Shown here: piece after piece, positions 21,560 to 30,529 of the stretch
How the letters are laid out: each line of letters starts with the position of its first letter
Numbering within the stretch: the stretch's first letter is position 1
Assembly (NCBI GenBank): GCA_001871495.1
Contig: MNVG01000053.1
Coordinates: 1 to 35,899, forward strand
Length of the DNA stretch: 35,899 bases
Reading direction: 5' to 3'
DNA from: Candidatus Micrarchaeota archaeon CG1_02_51_15
GTDB lineage: Archaea; Micrarchaeota; Micrarchaeia; Norongarragalinales; UBA8480
Notes under the pieces: generated by a model
Databases searched by the model: none
Told to the model about the DNA's origin: nothing
What the model saw: the letters and a program-made list of their open reading frames with translations, nothing else
Position numbers and translations under genes: made by a program

Positions 21560-21684
21560 AACCAAGTTGAAGGGACTAAATACTTTAATACGCTGCCTTG
21601 CCCGCGTCGCTTCCGACCAAGGTTTCCCGGAAAGTCGTCACGACCGCGTTACGAAAGGGAGTAAAGGTAAGCGTGCGGTTGCGT

Positions 21685-22257
21685 TTAAGGCGTTTGTTCC
21701 TGCTGAAAGTGTTCCCTTATTTTGCGGACCGTTTCGGTTAAGAGGGCGTCGAAGTTTCCGGCGTTCCTCACGCTTAAGCGTGCGCCCGCGATTATTTCGG
21801 GAAGCCCTGCTTGGACTTTAACTTGGTTCCGTTTACGCAGGTTGGCTTTAGAGTCCTTGCGGGTCAATTGTTTCCGGTGCGCGTGCATTGCCTGCCTGAA
21901 GCTTCGGTTGGCGGTAACGTTTACTATTAGCAACCGGTCCGCGGGAAAACTTGATTTCAACAGTTCGTACAATCCCGAATCGTACACTCCTTCAACCACC
22001 ACGGGGCCGTTCTCGGCGTGTTTTTTTATTTCCCTTAACACGTGCGGCCGCAGGTTTTCAAACGCGGGTTTTACTCCCGTGTGCTTGAAAAAATCCGCCA
22101 AATGAGCGTATCCTTCGAGCCTAGCGCGTTCGCGCATCATCTCGCTTGCGTTTACCGTGCGTGCTTCGAGTTCCCGGGCCAGTGCAGGGCTGAGCGTGCT
22201 TTTTCCAACCGCGGAGCGCCCGGTCAACAATATTATGGGGTGTTCCATTGGTTTCAC
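21685..22257 (-). CDS. P-loop nucleotide kinase-like protein
   Basis: Walker A GRSAVGKST; adenylate kinase/dephospho-CoA kinase-like architecture. Confidence 0.7.
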   Translation of the reverse strand: MKPMEHPIILLTGRSAVGKSTLSPALARELEARTVNASEMMRERARLEGYAHLADFFKHTGVKPAFENLRPHVLREIKKHAENGPVVVEGVYDSGLYELLKSSFPADRLLIVNVTANRSFRQAMHAHRKQLTRKDSKANLRKRNQVKVQAGLPEIIAGARLSVRNAGNFDALLTETVRKIREHFQQEQTP

Positions 22258-22670
22258 TTGCGTGCGCGCAATAATCTTGCAATCATTTTACGCGTGTCGC
22301 GCGTTAAATCCAGTTTCAACGCGTTTTTCGGGCAGGTTATCCGGTAGCCGCAGTGTTCCTCGCTTAAAGTCGGCTTTCCGGCAAATCGTCCGGCGTAAAC
22401 AAATTCCACTACGTGATAATCGTCTTGCCCTATCCTTACGCGGTTTGCATCCGCGTCCAATAACGTAATCCCTATCGGGGTTAAACCGGTTTCTTCAAGC
22501 GTTTCGCGCATTGCGGCTTGTCGCGGAGTCTCGCCCCAACTTATTTTTCCGCCCGGAAGCTGCCACTGCGCGGCCCCCCAAGTGCTTTCCTTCCGTCTCT
22601 TAAGCAAAAGTATCCTGCCTGCCGGGTCGCTGAGGAGGCACCTTGAAACGCAGGTTATTTTCTTGTTCAT
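22254..22670 (-). CDS. Nudix hydrolase
   Basis: LPGGKISWGETPRQAAMRETLEETGL. Confidence 0.92.
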   Translation of the reverse strand: MNKKITCVSRCLLSDPAGRILLLKRRKESTWGAAQWQLPGGKISWGETPRQAAMRETLEETGLTPIGITLLDADANRVRIGQDDYHVVEFVYAGRFAGKPTLSEEHCGYRITCPKNALKLDLTRDTRKMIARLLRARK

Positions 22671-22683
22671 CCGGAACTCCTTT

Positions 22684-24063
22684 TCAGTATTTTACCAGCG
22701 TATGCAAATCGTATTTGCCCAAGCCCCGCCTTGCGTTCAGGCTTTCAAGTTCAACTATTGCGAATATCCCGGCTATTCTGCCGCCGGAGTGTTCCGCCAT
22801 TCGGGACATTACGCGCATTGTTTCGCCGGTCGCCAGTATGTAGTCCACCAACAAAACCCTGCTTCCCTTCCGTATCGCGTGTTTCTGGAGATTTACCACG
22901 CGTTGAGGGTTGTATTCGTGTTCGTAGCACGCGGTTATGACTTCGCCGGCCAAGTCCTTGCGGAACATCGGCACCACCCCGCAACCCAGCGCGTTGGCTA
23001 TTGCCCCCGCCCAAACGAGGCCCTGCATGTCCTTCGCAATCACGTAATCTATCCCGTAGCCGGAATACTTTTTTTTAGCGTAACCTATTATGTCCCGAAA
23101 CAACGCAGCATTCCTCATGAGAGGAGTGGTGTCCCTAAACACCATTCCCTTGACTGGGAAATCAGGCACTGAGTTTATTGCCTTCCGTATCCTCCGCGCT
23201 AGCCCGAGTGCCTGCGGGTTCCCGTCGGCTTGTTCGGTCGCGGTTTTTGTGCTGTGCTTGTAAACCCAAATGTATTCGTGCATTGCTTCAAGCGTACGCA
23301 ATCCGTTCGCCGTCGTCGTCTTTTCGGCGATTGCGCTTATCACCTTCTTCCTGCGTTGCGCCGAAAGTCCGTTCCACCTGTCCCCGAACATGAACGACAG
23401 CAGGCGGTTTCCGTTCTTTCCGGGGTTGAATTCGCCGTTCTTGAAGCACGACGACAGGTTTATGCTCGACGCAACCGTTTCCGCATAATGGGGTATGCCA
23501 AGCTCCTTGAGTTTCTTCCTGATGGTTTCGCCGGTTGTCTTTCCGCCGCCGGCTATTCTTTTTATCGCGGTGTGGCTGCTTTCGGCGCTCCTTACGACTA
23601 TCACCGCCGTGCCGTTTTCTTTCAGGCAGCCGTAAATTTTTTCCAAAGCGTTTGCGCCCGCCTTGGCCTGCCAGTCCAAGAAATAGACCACGTTTATGCA
23701 GAGTACCAAGTCGTATTCGTCTTTCAGGTTTCGGGATTCGAATCGTTCGGTCCAAACATTCCTTATGTTACCGGACAAGCCGAGCAGTTTTGCGCGGCGG
23801 AGGAACTTTCCGCGCATTTGGGCAGACGGGTCCAGGTAGTCTATTTCAAGGTTCTTGCGCGGAAGCCTGGCCAACACCTCCAAGTCGTCTTCGCCCGAAC
23901 CGCCCCCCACGCACAGCACTCGCCGGCAGCCGAGCTTCGCGCGCATTATTTTCATTGACAAGTATCTGCTTACAATGCGTTTCTGGTCGATGTTCTGCAG
24001 GAACATCGAATAGAACGCCGCGTTTTTCTTAAAGAAGTCAAGTACCTTGCCGTTCGTGGCCAT
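22684..24063 (-). CDS. Fusion of a class I SAM methyltransferase-like domain and an adenine-phosphoribosyltransferase-like domain
   Basis: N-terminus RVLCVGGGSGEDDLEVLA...YDLVLCINVVYFL; C-terminus FPVKGMVFRDTTPLM...VLLVDYILATGETMRVM. Confidence 0.78.
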   Translation of the reverse strand: MATNGKVLDFFKKNAAFYSMFLQNIDQKRIVSRYLSMKIMRAKLGCRRVLCVGGGSGEDDLEVLARLPRKNLEIDYLDPSAQMRGKFLRRAKLLGLSGNIRNVWTERFESRNLKDEYDLVLCINVVYFLDWQAKAGANALEKIYGCLKENGTAVIVVRSAESSHTAIKRIAGGGKTTGETIRKKLKELGIPHYAETVASSINLSSCFKNGEFNPGKNGNRLLSFMFGDRWNGLSAQRRKKVISAIAEKTTTANGLRTLEAMHEYIWVYKHSTKTATEQADGNPQALGLARRIRKAINSVPDFPVKGMVFRDTTPLMRNAALFRDIIGYAKKKYSGYGIDYVIAKDMQGLVWAGAIANALGCGVVPMFRKDLAGEVITACYEHEYNPQRVVNLQKHAIRKGSRVLLVDYILATGETMRVMSRMAEHSGGRIAGIFAIVELESLNARRGLGKYDLHTLVKY

Positions 24064-24134
24064 TTCCCAATCGGTATAGCTTGCGCGCGTTTTCGTTATT
24101 AATGTTCTGCCCCCGCGAGCTTTGAATATGGTGA

Positions 24135-25019
24135 TTAGGGCATTTTCGGACCAAATTGACGGATTGTGCTAATAAGTAAAGGGTAAAGTTGTTCGTTTCG
24201 GTGGTTGAATCTGAATTCCATTTTTTTGACGTATTCGGGGTAGTTTTTGCGGTTGATTCCGTGGTATTTGTGGAAGCGTTCTTTGGCGAATGACCAGAAG
24301 CCTTCGATGCCGTTGATGTGGTTGTCGGAACAACGGCTTGCAAGCCGTTGTACGACGACGTTTCGCCAGCAGGCGAAACGCTCGTGTCCTTTGCCGAATG
24401 TTTTTGAGTGTTTGACTCGGTTGTGTTTGCCGTATTGTTTCAAGTCTTTGTAAGACTTGAAGTCGTCAGTGTAAAACATCGAACCTTTCCGCGTTTTCTT
24501 TTGAATGTGTTCGAACAATGTTTTTGCGGAAACGTCGTCAACAACTGCAGTGTAAACGCGGCCGTTTAGCTCTAAGATTCCGAATACTGCTTGCTTGTTG
24601 AACGCTCCGCGGCCGCGATTGCCTTTGCGTCTTCCACCGGAATAGGACTCGTCTGCAAGCGTTTTGTCCTGCCGGACAAAACGATGTGTCGAAAAGCCCG
24701 CCAGCTTTTCGAACACTTCGACGAGTCCGCGTAGTTTCTTGAACTCGTTTTCAGAGTATTCGATGATTGCTCGGCGAAACGCGGCGTAGCGTTTCGCAAC
24801 TGTTTCGTAATCCAAACAGAGTTCACGAGCGCACTTGCGTGCGCTTACTTCTAAATAAAAATAGTACAAGACTTTCAAATCGCGTTTGAGCTTGATCAAA
24901 CTATATTTTTTGCGGCAATTCTTACACTTTATACGCTTGTCACCGAGACGCGACAAACCATAATTGCCACAAAACCAGCACTTGCGACCATGTTCGTACA
25001 TAGCACTTCCAACAACCAT
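24135..25019 (-). CDS. IS1595-family transposase carrying two double-hairpin insertions
   Basis: N-terminal zinc ribbon CWFCGNYGL...CKNC; DESYSGGRRKGNRGRGA; MFYTDDFKSY; HINGIEGFWSFAKERFHKYHGI. Confidence 0.9.
   Translation of the reverse strand: MVVGSAMYEHGRKCWFCGNYGLSRLGDKRIKCKNCRKKYSLIKLKRDLKVLYYFYLEVSARKCARELCLDYETVAKRYAAFRRAIIEYSENEFKKLRGLVEVFEKLAGFSTHRFVRQDKTLADESYSGGRRKGNRGRGAFNKQAVFGILELNGRVYTAVVDDVSAKTLFEHIQKKTRKGSMFYTDDFKSYKDLKQYGKHNRVKHSKTFGKGHERFACWRNVVVQRLASRCSDNHINGIEGFWSFAKERFHKYHGINRKNYPEYVKKMEFRFNHRNEQLYPLLISTIRQFGPKMP
24330..24380. repeat. Double-hairpin palindromic insertion in the IS1595 transposase (copy A)
   Basis: ACAACGGCTTGCAAGCCGTTGT (24330-24351, perfect 22-nt palindrome), spacer ACGACGA, CGTTTCGCC-AGCA-GGCGAAACG (24359-24380). 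Confidence 0.88.
24660..24712. repeat. Double-hairpin palindromic insertion in the IS1595 transposase (copy B)
   Basis: CGTTTTGTCC-TGCC-GGACAAAACG (24660-24683), spacer ATGTG, TCGAAAAGC-CCGCCA-GCTTTTCGA (24689-24712). Confidence 0.88.
24774..24797. repeat. Perfect inverted repeat in the IS1595 transposase (9-bp stem, 6-nt loop)
   Basis: GCGAAACGC-GGCGTA-GCGTTTCGC. Confidence 0.75.
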
Positions 25020-25074
25020 AGACGCAAAAACACGCTAAAAGTAGTTAAATTAGTCCGTTTTTGTCACAATCACC

Positions 25075-25232
25075 AAAAGAAATTCGGCGACCAACTCAAA
25101 AGCAAAAACAAGACCGCAAGAATAAACGAACTACTCTGCAAAATCATTGCCTACAACATAACCGTCCTAATAGCCGAAATGTACGAACTCGGCATAAAAC
25201 CTGAATTCTGCAATTTAAGTGCCGAAAACTGA
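25075..25232 (+). pseudogene. C-terminal remnant of an unrelated DDE transposase
   Basis: KKFGDQLKSKNKTARINELLCKIIAYNITVLIAEMYELGIKPEF resembles C-termini of archaeal IS4/IS5-like transposases; abuts the IS1595 right end. Confidence 0.6.
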
Positions 25233-25254
25233 ACCTAAAGAAAAGCCTTTAAGT

Positions 25255-25410
25255 GCAAAGCTGCCCCCGCGCGAGGCAGCCGGTGCCACCGAGGACGGCG
25301 GTCGATTCCGTCCGGCCGTTTCGACCCCCGGCATTTCTCGGCTTGCCTGCAGAAAGAGGCTCGGAAACAAGGTTGGGCAAGCGATTTGTCGCGCACCGCA
25401 ACCGTTTTTT
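25255..25410 (+). ncRNA. Candidate structured RNA or GC-rich inverted-repeat region (unclassified)
   Basis: GC-rich, no convincing ORF. Stems GCTGCC/GGCAGC, GGACGG/CCGTCC, GGTCGA/TCGACC, GCTTGCC/GGCAAGC; AT-rich promoter-like stretch upstream. Confidence 0.25.
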
Positions 25411-25467
25411 AAAGCCCGCATTCTGTTTATTGTGAGACTGCATTCAAGCAAAGGAGTTGATTTTCAC

Positions 25468-25839
25468 TTGGTTAATAACAAGAACTGGCATTTGGAGGCG
25501 GCGCGGGCTCACGCGGCTTCGAAAGGAAAGATAATTGAGGAAGGGCCCCACGCGTCGGTTTGCGTGGCTATGCACACTCCGATTGCAGTGAGGTACGTTA
25601 CTTCGCGTAACGGAGAGGCTAATGCGTACATTTTCCTGTTGCCTGAAGAAATGAAGGGAAGCCAAGACGAACGCCAAGTAAGGAAGTTTTTGGCAACCGC
25701 AAAGGCGGCTTTACGCGTTTCGGCCGCTCACAACCAACTTAAAGGCGGCGGGCCCAACGGCATAACCATACCTCAGTTCAACCAGTTGCATCTTGAGCTG
25801 ACTACTGCGAAGTTATTGCTCGACGCCCACGGCAAGTAA
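25468..25839 (+). CDS. Hypothetical protein (123 aa)
   Basis: TTG start after AAAGGAG; tracked ORF extends implausibly upstream to 25219. Confidence 0.55.
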   Translation: MVNNKNWHLEAARAHAASKGKIIEEGPHASVCVAMHTPIAVRYVTSRNGEANAYIFLLPEEMKGSQDERQVRKFLATAKAALRVSAAHNQLKGGGPNGITIPQFNQLHLELTTAKLLLDAHGK

Positions 25840-25849
25840 GCCCAATGGC

Positions 25850-26353
25850 CTAGCCGAGTGTTTTTTCCGCTATTTTCCTGAACCACGGCGTGTACTTCTC
25901 CGGGTTTTGGGCTAGGTCCTTACGCAATTCCGAGGGTGCAATCCACTTTGTTTCGCACACTTCCTCGGGATTAGGGTTGACTTGTCCGTCGTACTCGCCG
26001 AAGAAAACGTGGTCGAACTCGTGTTCCGTCAAGCCGTGGTCCAACTCGGCCTTGTAGGTGAAAGCGTATTTTTCCGCAAGCGGGCAGTCGAAGCCCATTT
26101 CTTCACTCAGGCGGCGGTGGGCTGCTTGTTCGACGGCTTCGCCTTTGCGGGGGTGGCTGCAGCAAGTGTTTGCCCAAAGGTCGCCGCAGTGGTACTTGGA
26201 GTGGGCGCGGCGCTGGAGCAAAACGTCTCCGCTCTTGTTGAAGACGAGCACGGAAAACGCGCGGTGCAGTCTGGCCTGGCGGTGGACCCGCATTTTTTCC
26301 ATCAAGCCTGTTTCGCAGTCGTTTTCGTCAACTAGTATTACTTGTTCAGTCAT
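25850..26353 (-). CDS. idi: Isopentenyl-diphosphate delta-isomerase, type 1
   Basis: HRAFSVLVFNKSGDVLLQRRAHSKYHCGDLWANTCCSHPRKGE; RRLSEEMGF; LTEHEFDHVFFGEYDG. Confidence 0.95.
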   Translation of the reverse strand: MTEQVILVDENDCETGLMEKMRVHRQARLHRAFSVLVFNKSGDVLLQRRAHSKYHCGDLWANTCCSHPRKGEAVEQAAHRRLSEEMGFDCPLAEKYAFTYKAELDHGLTEHEFDHVFFGEYDGQVNPNPEEVCETKWIAPSELRKDLAQNPEKYTPWFRKIAEKTLG

Positions 26354-26437
26354 GTTGCATTGCCGGTAATTGAATGTAGGGGTGGGCTTATTATTTTAAG
26401 GGCGCGTTTTGGGGTTTAAGGCGGAGTTGGTTGGAAA

Positions 26438-27397
26438 GTGGTTTTGGAGTATAGGGAAGATTCTACTAAAGGCGTTTTGACTGTTGTTTCCACAGAGAGG
26501 GGCAAGCGACCGTCCGTGGCCGGAAAGGGCGCCAGGAAGGTTTGCCCGTTCTGCCCCGGTTCCGAGTCCATGGTGCCGCCGGCGGTTTTCGAGTCCGAGG
26601 GTAATAAAGGCTGGAGCGCCCGCGCGTTTCCCAACAAGTTTGCGATAGTGCGGCTTCCGGCGGTTGGAGAGCGGATTGCGTGCGTTGAAGGCGATTTCGG
26701 GCATTCGTTTGGTAGTGGCGTGCACGAAGTAATTGTCGAAACCAGGGCGCACAACCGTTTGTTCCAAGACTTTACCGACTCTGAGGCAATGCATTGTCTT
26801 GAAGTCTACAAGAATCGTTTTCGCGAACTAGGTGAGTTGAAGGGAGTTGAAAGCGTTTTTTTGTTCAAAAACCACGGCGGGAAAGCAGGCGCCAGTGTGG
26901 AGCACGAGCACGCGCAAATCATTGCACTGCCGTTCGTTCCGCCCATACTGGCGGAAGAGGCGCGGTTTGTTAAGAAAACCTTGAGGCAGGGAAGGTGTTG
27001 GTTCTGCAGGAACGACGAGTACCTGGAGCGCCACAAGGGGTTGGAGCTCGCGGAGACGAAACACTTCGTGGCGTTTTGCCCTCCGTTTGGCCGTTTTCCG
27101 TTCGAGTCTTGGATTGTTGCCAAGCGGCACGTGCGTTCTTTCTTGGAGTTCACGCCTGAAGAAGATAATGAGTTAATGAAGTTGTTGCGCCGCGTTGTCC
27201 GCGCAGTTCACGACGTTGCTTCGGAAGATTACGTGATTTTATTCCACAACGGGTTCAAGGGCGGGGAAATGCATTTTCATGTCGAAATAGCGCCGCGACC
27301 CAACGTGTGGGGCGGGCTTGAACTCGGTACGGGAATAATAGTTAACTCGGTTGCCGGAGAAGAAGGAGTCAAGAAGCTGCGCAAGGCGATGAAGTGA
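26438..27397 (+). CDS. galT: Galactose-1-phosphate uridylyltransferase family (GalT/HIT)
   Basis: CPFCPGSE; FLFKNHGGKAGASVEHEHAQIIALPF; HFHVEIAPR. Confidence 0.88.
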   Translation: MVLEYREDSTKGVLTVVSTERGKRPSVAGKGARKVCPFCPGSESMVPPAVFESEGNKGWSARAFPNKFAIVRLPAVGERIACVEGDFGHSFGSGVHEVIVETRAHNRLFQDFTDSEAMHCLEVYKNRFRELGELKGVESVFLFKNHGGKAGASVEHEHAQIIALPFVPPILAEEARFVKKTLRQGRCWFCRNDEYLERHKGLELAETKHFVAFCPPFGRFPFESWIVAKRHVRSFLEFTPEEDNELMKLLRRVVRAVHDVASEDYVILFHNGFKGGEMHFHVEIAPRPNVWGGLELGTGIIVNSVAGEEGVKKLRKAMK

Positions 27398-27542
27398 ACG
27401 AGCGGGAAATGCCGAAACTTCCTGCTTCGGAGGCGGCGCTGGAGCGGTTCAAGAAAGCGGGAATGGGTCGCAGGCGGTCTTGACTTTGTTGCAGGGTTGA
27501 TATTATCAAAAACTAGGTGGCATTACCGGGGTAGCGGCATTT

Positions 27543-28895
27543 TCATTTCTGGCGTGAGAGTTGCAGTATTGCTTCGTTGTATTTGTTGTTTACGTTTCCT
27601 GGTTTAAGCGGTTTTGTCATGTCGTGTTGTTTAAGCCGGTTTTCGGGATCCCTTTTCCTAAGCAGTACGCCGAGTCGTTCGGCTATCCGCGCCAACGGGG
27701 GATATGCAGGGTGCAGTTCGATGAAATTGTTTGTTTCGCGTTCCAAAACCGTTTGAGGTTTGGAGTAGGGTAGGCCGTGGAATGCACGGACTATTGCGTC
27801 TTTTTCCGGCGGCAGTCTTGCCGCAAGCAGTTTTTCGCGAGTGAAATCGGCTTCTTGGAAGATTAACGGTTTGTCGTGCAGGATGTGCTTAAGAGTTGCC
27901 AGCGCGGAGTAGTAGAGGTTGCGGCTTTCGCTTTTTACTTTGGGTCGGCCGAAACGGTCTTGTTCAATTTGTTTCATCAACGGCCCGAAGTGCCTATTTA
28001 CTTCCGTAAAAGAAGGGTTTGGCTGTGCGGCAATGAAAGAGTTGGCGTGGCGTGCGGCTTTCGCTTTTTCTAGCGGCATTGCGTTGATTTCCTTCTCACT
28101 GAACGAAAGTCGGTGGATTGCCCGCAAGGCGAACTGCTGGCCTTGAGGCAATCGGTTTATTCCCGCGGCAATTTCTGCGTCCGAGTATTCGCGGGAAGGG
28201 TAGTGAGGCAAGCCCGGCAGCGCGAGTTTTTGACGCAGGGAAGCAATGCTTTCGGCAGGCTTGGGCGGTTTTTCGTGCTTCCTTACTTTCTCTGCGATTT
28301 CTTTGACTTCAGTCGGTTCGGTTATTTTTATCGACGCGTTTTTCCGCCGTAGTCTTGCTATTGCTGCGTGCACTATTTGGCTGACGCGGTTCGCAGGGTT
28401 TGCCGGAACGTGTTCTTGCGTGAGCGGAAGTATTTTTTCGCCTACTGCGCGCAAGTCGTTTTCGCCGTGTTCTTCAATGAATTTGTTTACGATAATTGCA
28501 TGGCTTGCTTCCTGCGGTTTCATTGCGGCAATGGCTTCGGAAGTGAACTGCAGTCCTTTTGCGGCGCGTAGTACGAGTTGGTCGCGGAAAGGCAGGGCGT
28601 TTAAAAGCAGGCTTGCAGTTTGAGCGTGTTCTTCCTTGCTTGGCCGGGGTTCGGGCGGTTCGGAAGCGAATTTTTCCACAAGCGACATGTCGTCTTCTCG
28701 TGCCGGCGTCTCGAGGGAAATAAGTTGTCCTCGTCTTTCGGTTGCCCGGGCCGCCTTCAGCGCATCCTTAACCGCGTTTGCAATGGTCTTTCCATAGTAA
28801 GCGTCCGGGTTTTCCGGCGACGGATTGCGTTCTATCGCGCGCCGCAGCCTGATTCTGGCGTGCGCTGCAAACTCTTCTCTTTCAATCGGGTTCAT
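27543..28895 (-). CDS. Sigma-70-like protein with three tandem sigma4-like modules
   Basis: First module ends NRVSQIVHAAIARLRRK, matching the region 4.2 pattern SRVSQIxxxAxxRLR; modules at about residues 98-185, 246-340 and 356-450. Confidence 0.55.
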   Translation of the reverse strand: MNPIEREEFAAHARIRLRRAIERNPSPENPDAYYGKTIANAVKDALKAARATERRGQLISLETPAREDDMSLVEKFASEPPEPRPSKEEHAQTASLLLNALPFRDQLVLRAAKGLQFTSEAIAAMKPQEASHAIIVNKFIEEHGENDLRAVGEKILPLTQEHVPANPANRVSQIVHAAIARLRRKNASIKITEPTEVKEIAEKVRKHEKPPKPAESIASLRQKLALPGLPHYPSREYSDAEIAAGINRLPQGQQFALRAIHRLSFSEKEINAMPLEKAKAARHANSFIAAQPNPSFTEVNRHFGPLMKQIEQDRFGRPKVKSESRNLYYSALATLKHILHDKPLIFQEADFTREKLLAARLPPEKDAIVRAFHGLPYSKPQTVLERETNNFIELHPAYPPLARIAERLGVLLRKRDPENRLKQHDMTKPLKPGNVNNKYNEAILQLSRQK

Positions 28896-28969
28896 GGCGC
28901 TTTTGCGGCGCTCGCCTGGATGCGCGGCTCGTACTTTTCCAACAGCTTCCTGAAGCGTTCTTCGCTCAT
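28892..28969 (-). CDS. Possible small ORF (25 aa) coupled by ATGA to the sigma-like gene
   Basis: MSEERFRKLLEKYEPRIQASAAKAP; stop overlaps the downstream ATG. Confidence 0.3.
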   Translation of the reverse strand: MSEERFRKLLEKYEPRIQASAAKAP

Positions 28970-28985
28970 CAATCGGATTATCGCT

Positions 28986-29402
28986 TCACTTCTTTTCTTC
29001 TTTTGCTTCTGCCTTCTTTTCTTTAGCTTTAGGCGTGAAGCCGAGTTCTGCAAGCGGTTTTTGTCCGTATTCCTTGATTTTTGCGTTTAGTTGTACCGTG
29101 TTTGCCGAGATTTTGTTTCCGGTTACGGTGCGTTTCCTGCGGACTCCCTTAATCGAGTGGCGGATTCCTGCTCCTTTTGAAAGGTAGGCCTTGACGCGGC
29201 GTTGTCCGTCGATATCGTGGCGCATTGGAAAGCCGTCCTTGTCGCTTCCACCAGTTATTGTTAGAGTGTAGCCGGGCAGCCCTGCAATGCCGCCTTCAAT
29301 GTCGTCGCCAATCTTCTTGCCTGCAAACTGGGCTTCCTTGGTTTTTTCAACTTCCTTCTGGAAACAATTGCCTGTCTTGCAGTCTGCTATCACTATCTTC
29401 AT
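28986..29402 (-). CDS. rps6e: 30S ribosomal protein S6e
   Basis: MKIVIADCKTGNCFQKEVE...GGSDKDGFPMRHDIDGQRRVKAYLSKGAGIR. Confidence 0.96.
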   Translation of the reverse strand: MKIVIADCKTGNCFQKEVEKTKEAQFAGKKIGDDIEGGIAGLPGYTLTITGGSDKDGFPMRHDIDGQRRVKAYLSKGAGIRHSIKGVRRKRTVTGNKISANTVQLNAKIKEYGQKPLAELGFTPKAKEKKAEAKEEKK

Positions 29403-29548
29403 TTTACTTCGACCTCCCGTCAAATAATTTGGTCCGCTCAGTTTACGTCCCGAACGGTTGCAACCATTATGCTCCCGCCCGCTTTTATTGGTTGCGGCCG
29501 CAAGCGGTTTTTAAACGGAGCGCGCTTATTTTTAATGAGGCAGGAATC

Positions 29549-30529
29549 ATGGGGTCGCGCAAATACGAAGTAGTTAGTTCGGCAGTAGAGTATAGTTTGA
29601 AACGGCTTGATGACGAGCAGCACTTGCGTGCGGTCGTGCATCATTTGGACGAGCGGCAAATTGTGGCTCTTTGGAAAAAAGAGGTCGAATCAGGCAATTA
29701 CGGACGGGCCGTCAATTTGCTGCATGCTGCAGTTGACGCAGGAAAGTACGGCAAGCGCCAGGCTCAATTGTTCACGTTTTCGCAAGTTGGTTCATTGCTT
29801 GAAGCGCACAATTTTCTGGAGTTTAAAGGCCTTTTGAGAGCAGTTGTTTCCAAGGGGCTGTTGTTTGACGAGGGCGCGTCTCTTGCCAAGTTTTCAAAAA
29901 AGCTCGTTAGTGCCGGCAACAATCCGCTGGCGCGCGAGGTATTCGGCCTGGGTTTGGAACGTAACTCGTTTTTTGGCAAGCGGGGCCCGGACTCAAGGTT
30001 GGTGTTGGGCGTAATAGGCCACGCGATTGAAAACAAAGAGTTTTTTTTGGGTGCCGAGTGGTTGAGCCAGGTGGTTGAAAAAAAATTGGTTTTGCGCGAG
30101 CACGCCAAACCGGTTTTCGGCAAGCTAGTCGAGTCTACGCGTGCTCATAATACGGGCGCGTTTTTGCTTGTCTTGCGGAAGGCGGTTGAGGCCAAGGCAC
30201 TCAAGAAGCCGGGGCGGCTTTTTCAAGAGGCGTTTGAGCTGGTGCGGCGGAATCCACGGGATGCTTCCGACTTGCTTGAACTGGGTTTGATGTATGACTT
30301 GTTGGAAAAAAACCACGCGGAGAACCTGCTTGACCAAATGGAGGTGTTGCCGCACTGGGCCAGTAATAGCAGGGATCATCAAGTGCAGAGCTTGCGGGGC
30401 CGTCTGTACGCAGTTGCCGGCGAGCACGATAATGCCCAAATGATTGCAGACTGGCTGGGGCAGCAGGGTGAGGCGCACGAAGGAAAGTCGGCTTTAGTGA
30501 TTCACGAGATTGAGCGCAGGCGGCGTTGA
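29549..30529 (+). CDS. Alpha-helical repeat (solenoid-like) hypothetical protein
   Basis: ATG at 29549; successive helix pairs reminiscent of TPR/PPR-type repeats; tracked ORF extends into non-coding upstream. Confidence 0.6.
   Translation: MGSRKYEVVSSAVEYSLKRLDDEQHLRAVVHHLDERQIVALWKKEVESGNYGRAVNLLHAAVDAGKYGKRQAQLFTFSQVGSLLEAHNFLEFKGLLRAVVSKGLLFDEGASLAKFSKKLVSAGNNPLAREVFGLGLERNSFFGKRGPDSRLVLGVIGHAIENKEFFLGAEWLSQVVEKKLVLREHAKPVFGKLVESTRAHNTGAFLLVLRKAVEAKALKKPGRLFQEAFELVRRNPRDASDLLELGLMYDLLEKNHAENLLDQMEVLPHWASNSRDHQVQSLRGRLYAVAGEHDNAQMIADWLGQQGEAHEGKSALVIHEIERRRR

Follow-up and report, generated by a model that had tools for sequence, protein, structure and literature searches.

Transcription initiation is defined by sigma factors in one of the two prokaryotic domains and by TFB in the other, and a gene on a micrarchaeal contig raises the question of what a bacterial-type sigma protein with multiplied DNA-binding modules does in an archaeon. 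The window (the whole contig stretch of 35,899 nt that was analysed) carries on its reverse strand an ATG-initiated open reading frame (ORF) of 450 codons at 27543-28895, a position that was given exactly in an initial annotation describing a sigma-70-like protein with three sigma4-like modules in an archaeal genome. The archaeal setting is beyond dispute, as the window is unmistakably a micrarchaeal chromosome: it encodes eS6, an aIF5B-like factor, deoxyhypusine synthase, a tRNA-intron endonuclease, HMG-CoA reductase and AcnX, and its gene order is conserved with other micrarchaea. If archaea keep, duplicate and remodel sigma modules, it becomes directly testable whether sigma works with the archaeal RNA polymerase (RNAP) or is a mere DNA reader, and tandem sigma4 would be a natural design to lengthen DNA recognition. 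The features discussed below are as follows (L-numbers denote loci of related genomes or of the same genome).

26438..27397, forward strand: GalT/HIT-family protein, downstream convergent neighbour (profile search)
27398..28985, no strand: 1.6-kb lineage-specific insertion holding the gene (synteny comparison)
27543..28895, reverse strand: 450-aa ORF with ATG start, apparently degenerate sigma2 plus three tandem variant sigma4 modules (sequence reading, alignments)
28707..28883, reverse strand: sigma2.2-2.4-like segment, residues 5-63 (co-linear TIGR02937 match; z 4.1 to the L059 sigma2)
28626..28706, reverse strand: acidic sigma2-sigma4 linker (PAREDD...), residues 64-90 (direct reading; the TIGR02937 alignment spans it)
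28335..28625, reverse strand: sigma4 module M1, residues 91-187 (alignments, profile, model pLDDT mostly 72-94)
28188..28334, reverse strand: low-confidence linker, residues 188-236 (pLDDT mostly under 40)
27870..28187, reverse strand: sigma4 module M2, residues 237-342 (alignments, profile, module model)
27546..27845, reverse strand: sigma4 module M3, residues 351-450 (alignments)
28455..28556, reverse strand: insertion between sigma4 helix 2 and the helix-turn-helix (HTH) of M1, residues 114-147 (alignments A2 and A6; modelled as an extra helix)
28011..28112 and 27696..27776, reverse strand: equivalent insertions of M2 and M3 (alignments A2 and A6)
28341..28397, reverse strand: recognition helix of M1, NRVSQIVHAAIARLRR (DSSP of the model, alignment A2)
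27879..27935 and 27549..27590, reverse strand: equivalent recognition helices of M2 and M3 (alignment A2)
28892..28969, reverse strand, -1 frame: 25-aa ORF MSEERFRKLLEKYEPRIQASAAKAP, candidate sigma region 2.1, overlapping the start of the 450-aa ORF by ATGA
28986..29399, reverse strand: ribosomal protein eS6, upstream neighbour (Pfam PF01092, E 2e-36)

The ORF is read through its 450 codons without interruption, and its ATG lies 90 nt past the stop codon of eS6, which is encoded by the same strand. Measured against core genes of the host, the codon adaptation of the ORF is 0.747, within the span seen for 18 such genes (0.703-0.807); it is even across the gene, M3 included (0.73-0.77), and exceeds that of all other frames of the same stretch (0.59-0.71). 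Thus, the ORF is a real, coding and host-adapted gene, and a frame artefact was rejected on the same grounds. Whole-protein orthologs were not found in 98 relatives, except for one weak match containing stops, nor in GTDB contigs; phage, plasmid and IMG/VR collections gave none in searches that are sensitive to close relatives only, and a sequence search of the PDB with the 450-aa protein gave no match.

The three modules, each of about 100 aa, align with one another far above shuffled background, as the initial annotation had predicted for internal repeats: pairwise scores are 68, 52 and 57, where shuffled sequences average 27-29 (sd about 5; 2,000 shuffles, p 0.0005-0.0015), with z scores of 8.2, 4.3 and 6.1 when tighter module bounds are used. 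They also match the sigma4 of other proteins, with M3 reaching z about 13 against L035, a shorter sigma-like protein of the same genome (contig C24) that ends in the same variant of sigma4 as the modules, and z 11 against L102, while M2 scores z 8.7 against L102 and M1 z 3.9 against L058; by these z scores M3 resembles L035 and L102 more than it resembles the other two modules. The L058 variant connects further to canonical sigma4 (z 9.4 and 7.5). It is this chain of significant comparisons, beyond motif resemblance, that identifies the modules as sigma4; Pfam Sigma70_r4 (PF04545) alone gives 17.6 bits, below its cut-off of 24.1.

A profile made from M1-M3 only picked out two other proteins among 961 ORFs of related loci, L067:2692-3777 (= L102:4691-5776) from another genome of the order (E 0.002) and L058:4322-5293 in the sole other genome of the genus searched (E 0.018), which answers the call for homologs in related archaea. 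What matches in each of them is the sigma4 at the C-terminus, and the insertion sits at the same place, some 20-30 aa between sigma4 helix 2 and the HTH, giving a pattern (LPxxxxxxRAxxxLxY, an insertion with N..I, the HTH and the recognition helix) that the window modules share. The combined profile A2, built from M1-M3, L058 and L102, found these sequences, L035 as an independent weak match and nothing else, placing the variant in three of 295 genomes of the class. The window modules are therefore sigma region 4 of a rare inserted variant restricted to this order, and the protein is almost certainly a sigma-70 homolog carrying three such modules. Unlike the window protein, L058 and L102 are complete sigma-70 factors with a single sigma4 and full sigma2 and sigma3 by Pfam and NCBIfam (L058 with regions 1.2, 2 and 3 and 179.8 bits to the RpoS model; L102 with region 2 and region 3, PF04539 E 2.5e-11). 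We also observed that the RpoS-like factor of L058 lies near an ORF with GAF/cyclase-like profile matches (L058:4322-8003, reverse strand).

The modules are basic (pI 9.6-10.0, versus 6.6 for the sigma2 remnant), and they retain the -35-contact residues only in part. In alignment to E. coli sigma70, the counterparts of R586 and Q589 of the -35-reading helix are kept in M1 and neither is kept in M2 or M3. M2 and M3 may thus bind other sites or none, and their specificities probably differ from that of M1. When -35/-10-like sites were sought in 20 kb of the window, as had been suggested, they occurred at chance level (12 found versus 9.6 expected) in what is a weak test.

Structure prediction bore out the proposed sigma4 fold for M1 and M2, and no non-HTH fold emerged. 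As MAFFT put sigma2 in the wrong place when the protein was aligned over its full length with entire sigma factors, predictions used sigma4-only rows. Full-length AlphaFold2 modelled M1 and most of M2 confidently, the first half of M3 with moderate confidence, and the linkers and the end of M3 with low confidence; the insertion within sigma4 is modelled as an additional helix. The closest solved chains to the model of residues 80-195 (the M1 region) are almost all region 4 of sigmaA/sigma70, including Vibrio sigma70 (Z 7.6, 2.8 A, 74 residues) and Thermus thermophilus sigmaA (Z 8.7, 3.9 A, 75 residues), Z values to be read with the caution that helical models commonly attain middling Z. M2 modelled alone, with six sigma4 relatives in its input alignment, reached pLDDT 82.7 and pTM 0.72, and its top nine PDB matches are all sigma4, the best being SigR region 4 (Z 5.8, 3.4 A, 65/65 residues). 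Foldseek E-values for the M1 and M2 models are not significant, so the structural argument rests on sigma4 filling the top ranks and on coverage of the whole sigma4 domain. By these models, the predicted M1 and M2 folds match the solved sigma4 HTH.

The N-terminus had likewise been suspected of being sigma-like, and this held in part. N-terminus and M1 together (residues 1-192) match the NCBIfam sigma70 model TIGR02937 with E 1.1e-5 (25.1 bits; cut-off 42.9), residues 4-124 being co-linear with it from region 2.2 into sigma4, whereas the N-terminus alone gives E 0.042. Because TIGR02937 and PF04545 scores stay below the curated cut-offs, we file the protein as a derived homolog and not as a bona fide sigma factor. 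A 'protein arginine kinase' match of residues 1-90 alone (E 4e-4) was set aside, as it covers 70 of 345 profile positions, weakens with more context and falls behind the sigma model when M1 is added. No sigma3 was detected between the sigma2-like segment and M1, and it is apparently also missing in sigma-like proteins of several order members (L023, L059 and L061).

What the in-frame N-terminus lacks is region 2.1. Similar sequence lies in the -1 frame, past the eS6 stop and ahead of the ATG, starting at 28969; a slip of one base at an A4 run parts it from the 450-aa frame. With MSEERFRKLLEKYEPRIQASAAKAP joined to the protein, TIGR02937 scored 33.9 bits (E 2.2e-8, profile positions 2-141; still below 42.9), compared with 25.6 for the in-frame extension, and PF04542 rose from 15.0 to 18.4 bits, covering positions 1-69 of 71, whereas nine of ten shuffled extensions gave 24.4-25.6 TIGR02937 bits and one gave 30.1. 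A local profile of the sigma factors of the class showed no gain from the same extension, the window protein itself scoring only about 6 bits. That the -1-frame ORF may encode the missing region is suggestive only; a frameshift mutation, a consensus error in the A4 run, programmed frameshifting or coupled translation could each underlie the arrangement. The N-terminus itself appears to be a degenerate sigma2.

The gene sits in an insertion. The galT-like and eS6 genes adjoin, with nothing recognisable between them, in L097 of the same genus and in at least three members of the family or order (L098, L099 and L101), so this lineage has acquired the 450-aa gene. Its surroundings showed neither a target-site duplication nor an obvious boundary of the insertion. 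Two further stretches of the window are absent from the genus-mate: 21566-26437, which holds an IS1595-type transposase (24135-25019) and a methyltransferase-phosphoribosyltransferase ORF, and the region from eS6 to ornithine cyclodeaminase, with an aminotransferase gene and an ORF of helical-repeat appearance at about 29546-30529 (forward strand) that has no Pfam match.

Elsewhere, the genome encodes TFB (contig C22), in keeping with the general reliance of archaea on TBP/TFB, and the cyclin-fold repeats of TFB/TFIIB (PF00382) have no Pfam match in the 450-aa protein. Three or more additional sigma-like genes of this genome lie on contigs C4, C23 and C24, near genes for SMC, archaeal ATP synthase subunit B and phosphoglycerate kinase. 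A 670-aa protein of the same genome (L034:10332-12344, forward strand) fuses an N-terminal homing-endonuclease-associated repeat (weak Pfam match) to sigma2-3-4 and has several similar-looking segments. Across the class, sigma region 2 exceeds the Pfam cut-off in 34 of 295 genomes, a few of which may reflect contaminants (for example, the small contig G022:C29), with 11 of 29 in the order and none of four archaeal controls.

To account for these data, we lean towards a sigma-derived, multivalent and sequence-specific DNA-binding regulator. Its origin would be a sigma-70 factor of bacterial type that this micrarchaeal lineage carried, whose sigma4 with the inserted helix would have multiplied to three or been joined by related sigma4 domains through fusion, with sigma2 degenerating and sigma3 absent. 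Three basic HTH modules on flexible linkers could then contact successive major-groove sites, and the protein may regulate target promoters or compete at them. Sigma proteins with added repeat units occur elsewhere in the genome too (L034), which we count in favour of a regulator. The protein probably does not replace TFB as general initiation factor: the out-of-frame region 2.1 and the loss of sigma3 argue against a standard initiation role, and the presence of TFB means that canonical archaeal initiation is available. The same points, together with the degenerate sigma2 and the lack of a -35/-10-like excess in the weak promoter test, make it improbable that the gene encodes a working alternative initiation factor, in which sigma2, with region 2.1 supplied by frameshifting, would dock on the clamp coiled coil of archaeal RNAP while three sigma4 read extended upstream elements, even though the sigma2-sigma4 order is co-linear, joining the -1-frame ORF completes region 2 and the genus has complete sigma factors.

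The one-base slip would also fit a decaying gene, that is, a sigma factor frameshifted in region 2 and drifting, as would the contact residues lost from M2 and M3 and the absence of the gene from the genus-mate; we regard this as rather unlikely, though less so than the alternative initiation factor, since 450 codons are open, codon adaptation is core-like and even into M3, the hydrophobic and helical pattern is kept in all three modules and the M1 and M2 models are of high confidence. No better than for the initiation factor are the prospects of a sigma-derived part of a mobile element or of virus-host conflict, settings in which sigma-like genes diversify fast: the lineage-specific insertion, which has other insertions and an IS1595 transposase nearby, the patchy distribution of sigma genes in the class and the densely packed arrays that divergent sigma genes form in tandem in other micrarchaea speak for it, and the host-like codon usage, the ribosomal and metabolic neighbours and the empty searches of phage, plasmid and IMG/VR collections (for close relatives) against it. 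Scores under the curated Pfam and NCBIfam cut-offs could point to a generic HTH repeat protein without sigma ancestry, which module-to-sigma4 z scores of up to 13, the insertion common to true sigma factors and the sigma4-filled fold ranks render very improbable. Bacterial contamination or mis-binning, conceivable as sigma factors are bacterial and the bin comprises 56 contigs, has a negligible chance, being refuted for the window by the archaeal genes on the same contig and the conserved synteny; moreover, the tetranucleotide use of L058 matches its own genome (r 0.92).

Compared with sigma-70 factors of the RpoD/RpoS/ECF type, the window protein shares the sigma2-to-sigma4 order, the sigma4 fold, the recognition-helix signature NRVSQI...ARLRR and ISLETP plus an acidic linker, but it has three sigma4 for one, a 20-30-aa helical insertion in each, a degenerate sigma2 and no sigma3. 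That bacterial-type sigma factors are known from archaea was correctly stated in the initial annotation: the first are attributed to Rinke et al. (cited in PMC6126073), and sigma-70 genes are published from DPANN, most prevalent in Woesearchaeota, where they likewise reside beside TFB (Castelle et al. 2021, PMC8204110). That study found no anti-sigma factor, and repeated sigma4 is not among the features described in the excerpted text.

The supposition that triplication would be unusual in any domain agrees with the open-access literature (most subscription journals being outside its scope), in which we found no description of tandem sigma4, and is qualified by a second expansion within Micrarchaeota. 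L040:5059-8091 (forward strand, 1010 aa; Alinen sediments Micrarchaeota bin-4478), overlapped by 4 nt by an upstream 594-aa sigma protein, and L036:2727-5705 (reverse strand, 992 aa) have a sigma2-like start followed by sigma4 repeats as in the window protein, with six to eight repeats detectable, and are confined to one genus (g40) among the 295 genomes. Their repeats differ in being canonical sigma4 without the insertion, belong to another family and compare with the window modules at chance level (z -0.8 to 0.8), and a search of the window genome with L040 gave no match; sigma4 has therefore apparently multiplied at least twice. A broader and rather speculative proposal, doubtful on present evidence, is that Micrarchaeota have repeatedly made modular DNA-binding proteins from horizontally acquired sigma-70 by tandem sigma4 multiplication (three copies of the inserted type in this gene and as many as eight canonical ones elsewhere), with sigma-type promoter reading beside TBP/TFB and the present gene possibly supplying sigma2.1 by frameshifting or start-stop coupling.

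Two other loci of the class were noted in passing. L037:3853-11137 (reverse strand, genome G064) is a tandem array of about seven divergent sigma-like genes, and L042:2836-5883 (reverse strand, genome G101) is an open frame of 1015 aa in which several sigma4-like segments, separated by low-complexity linkers, can be made out by eye.
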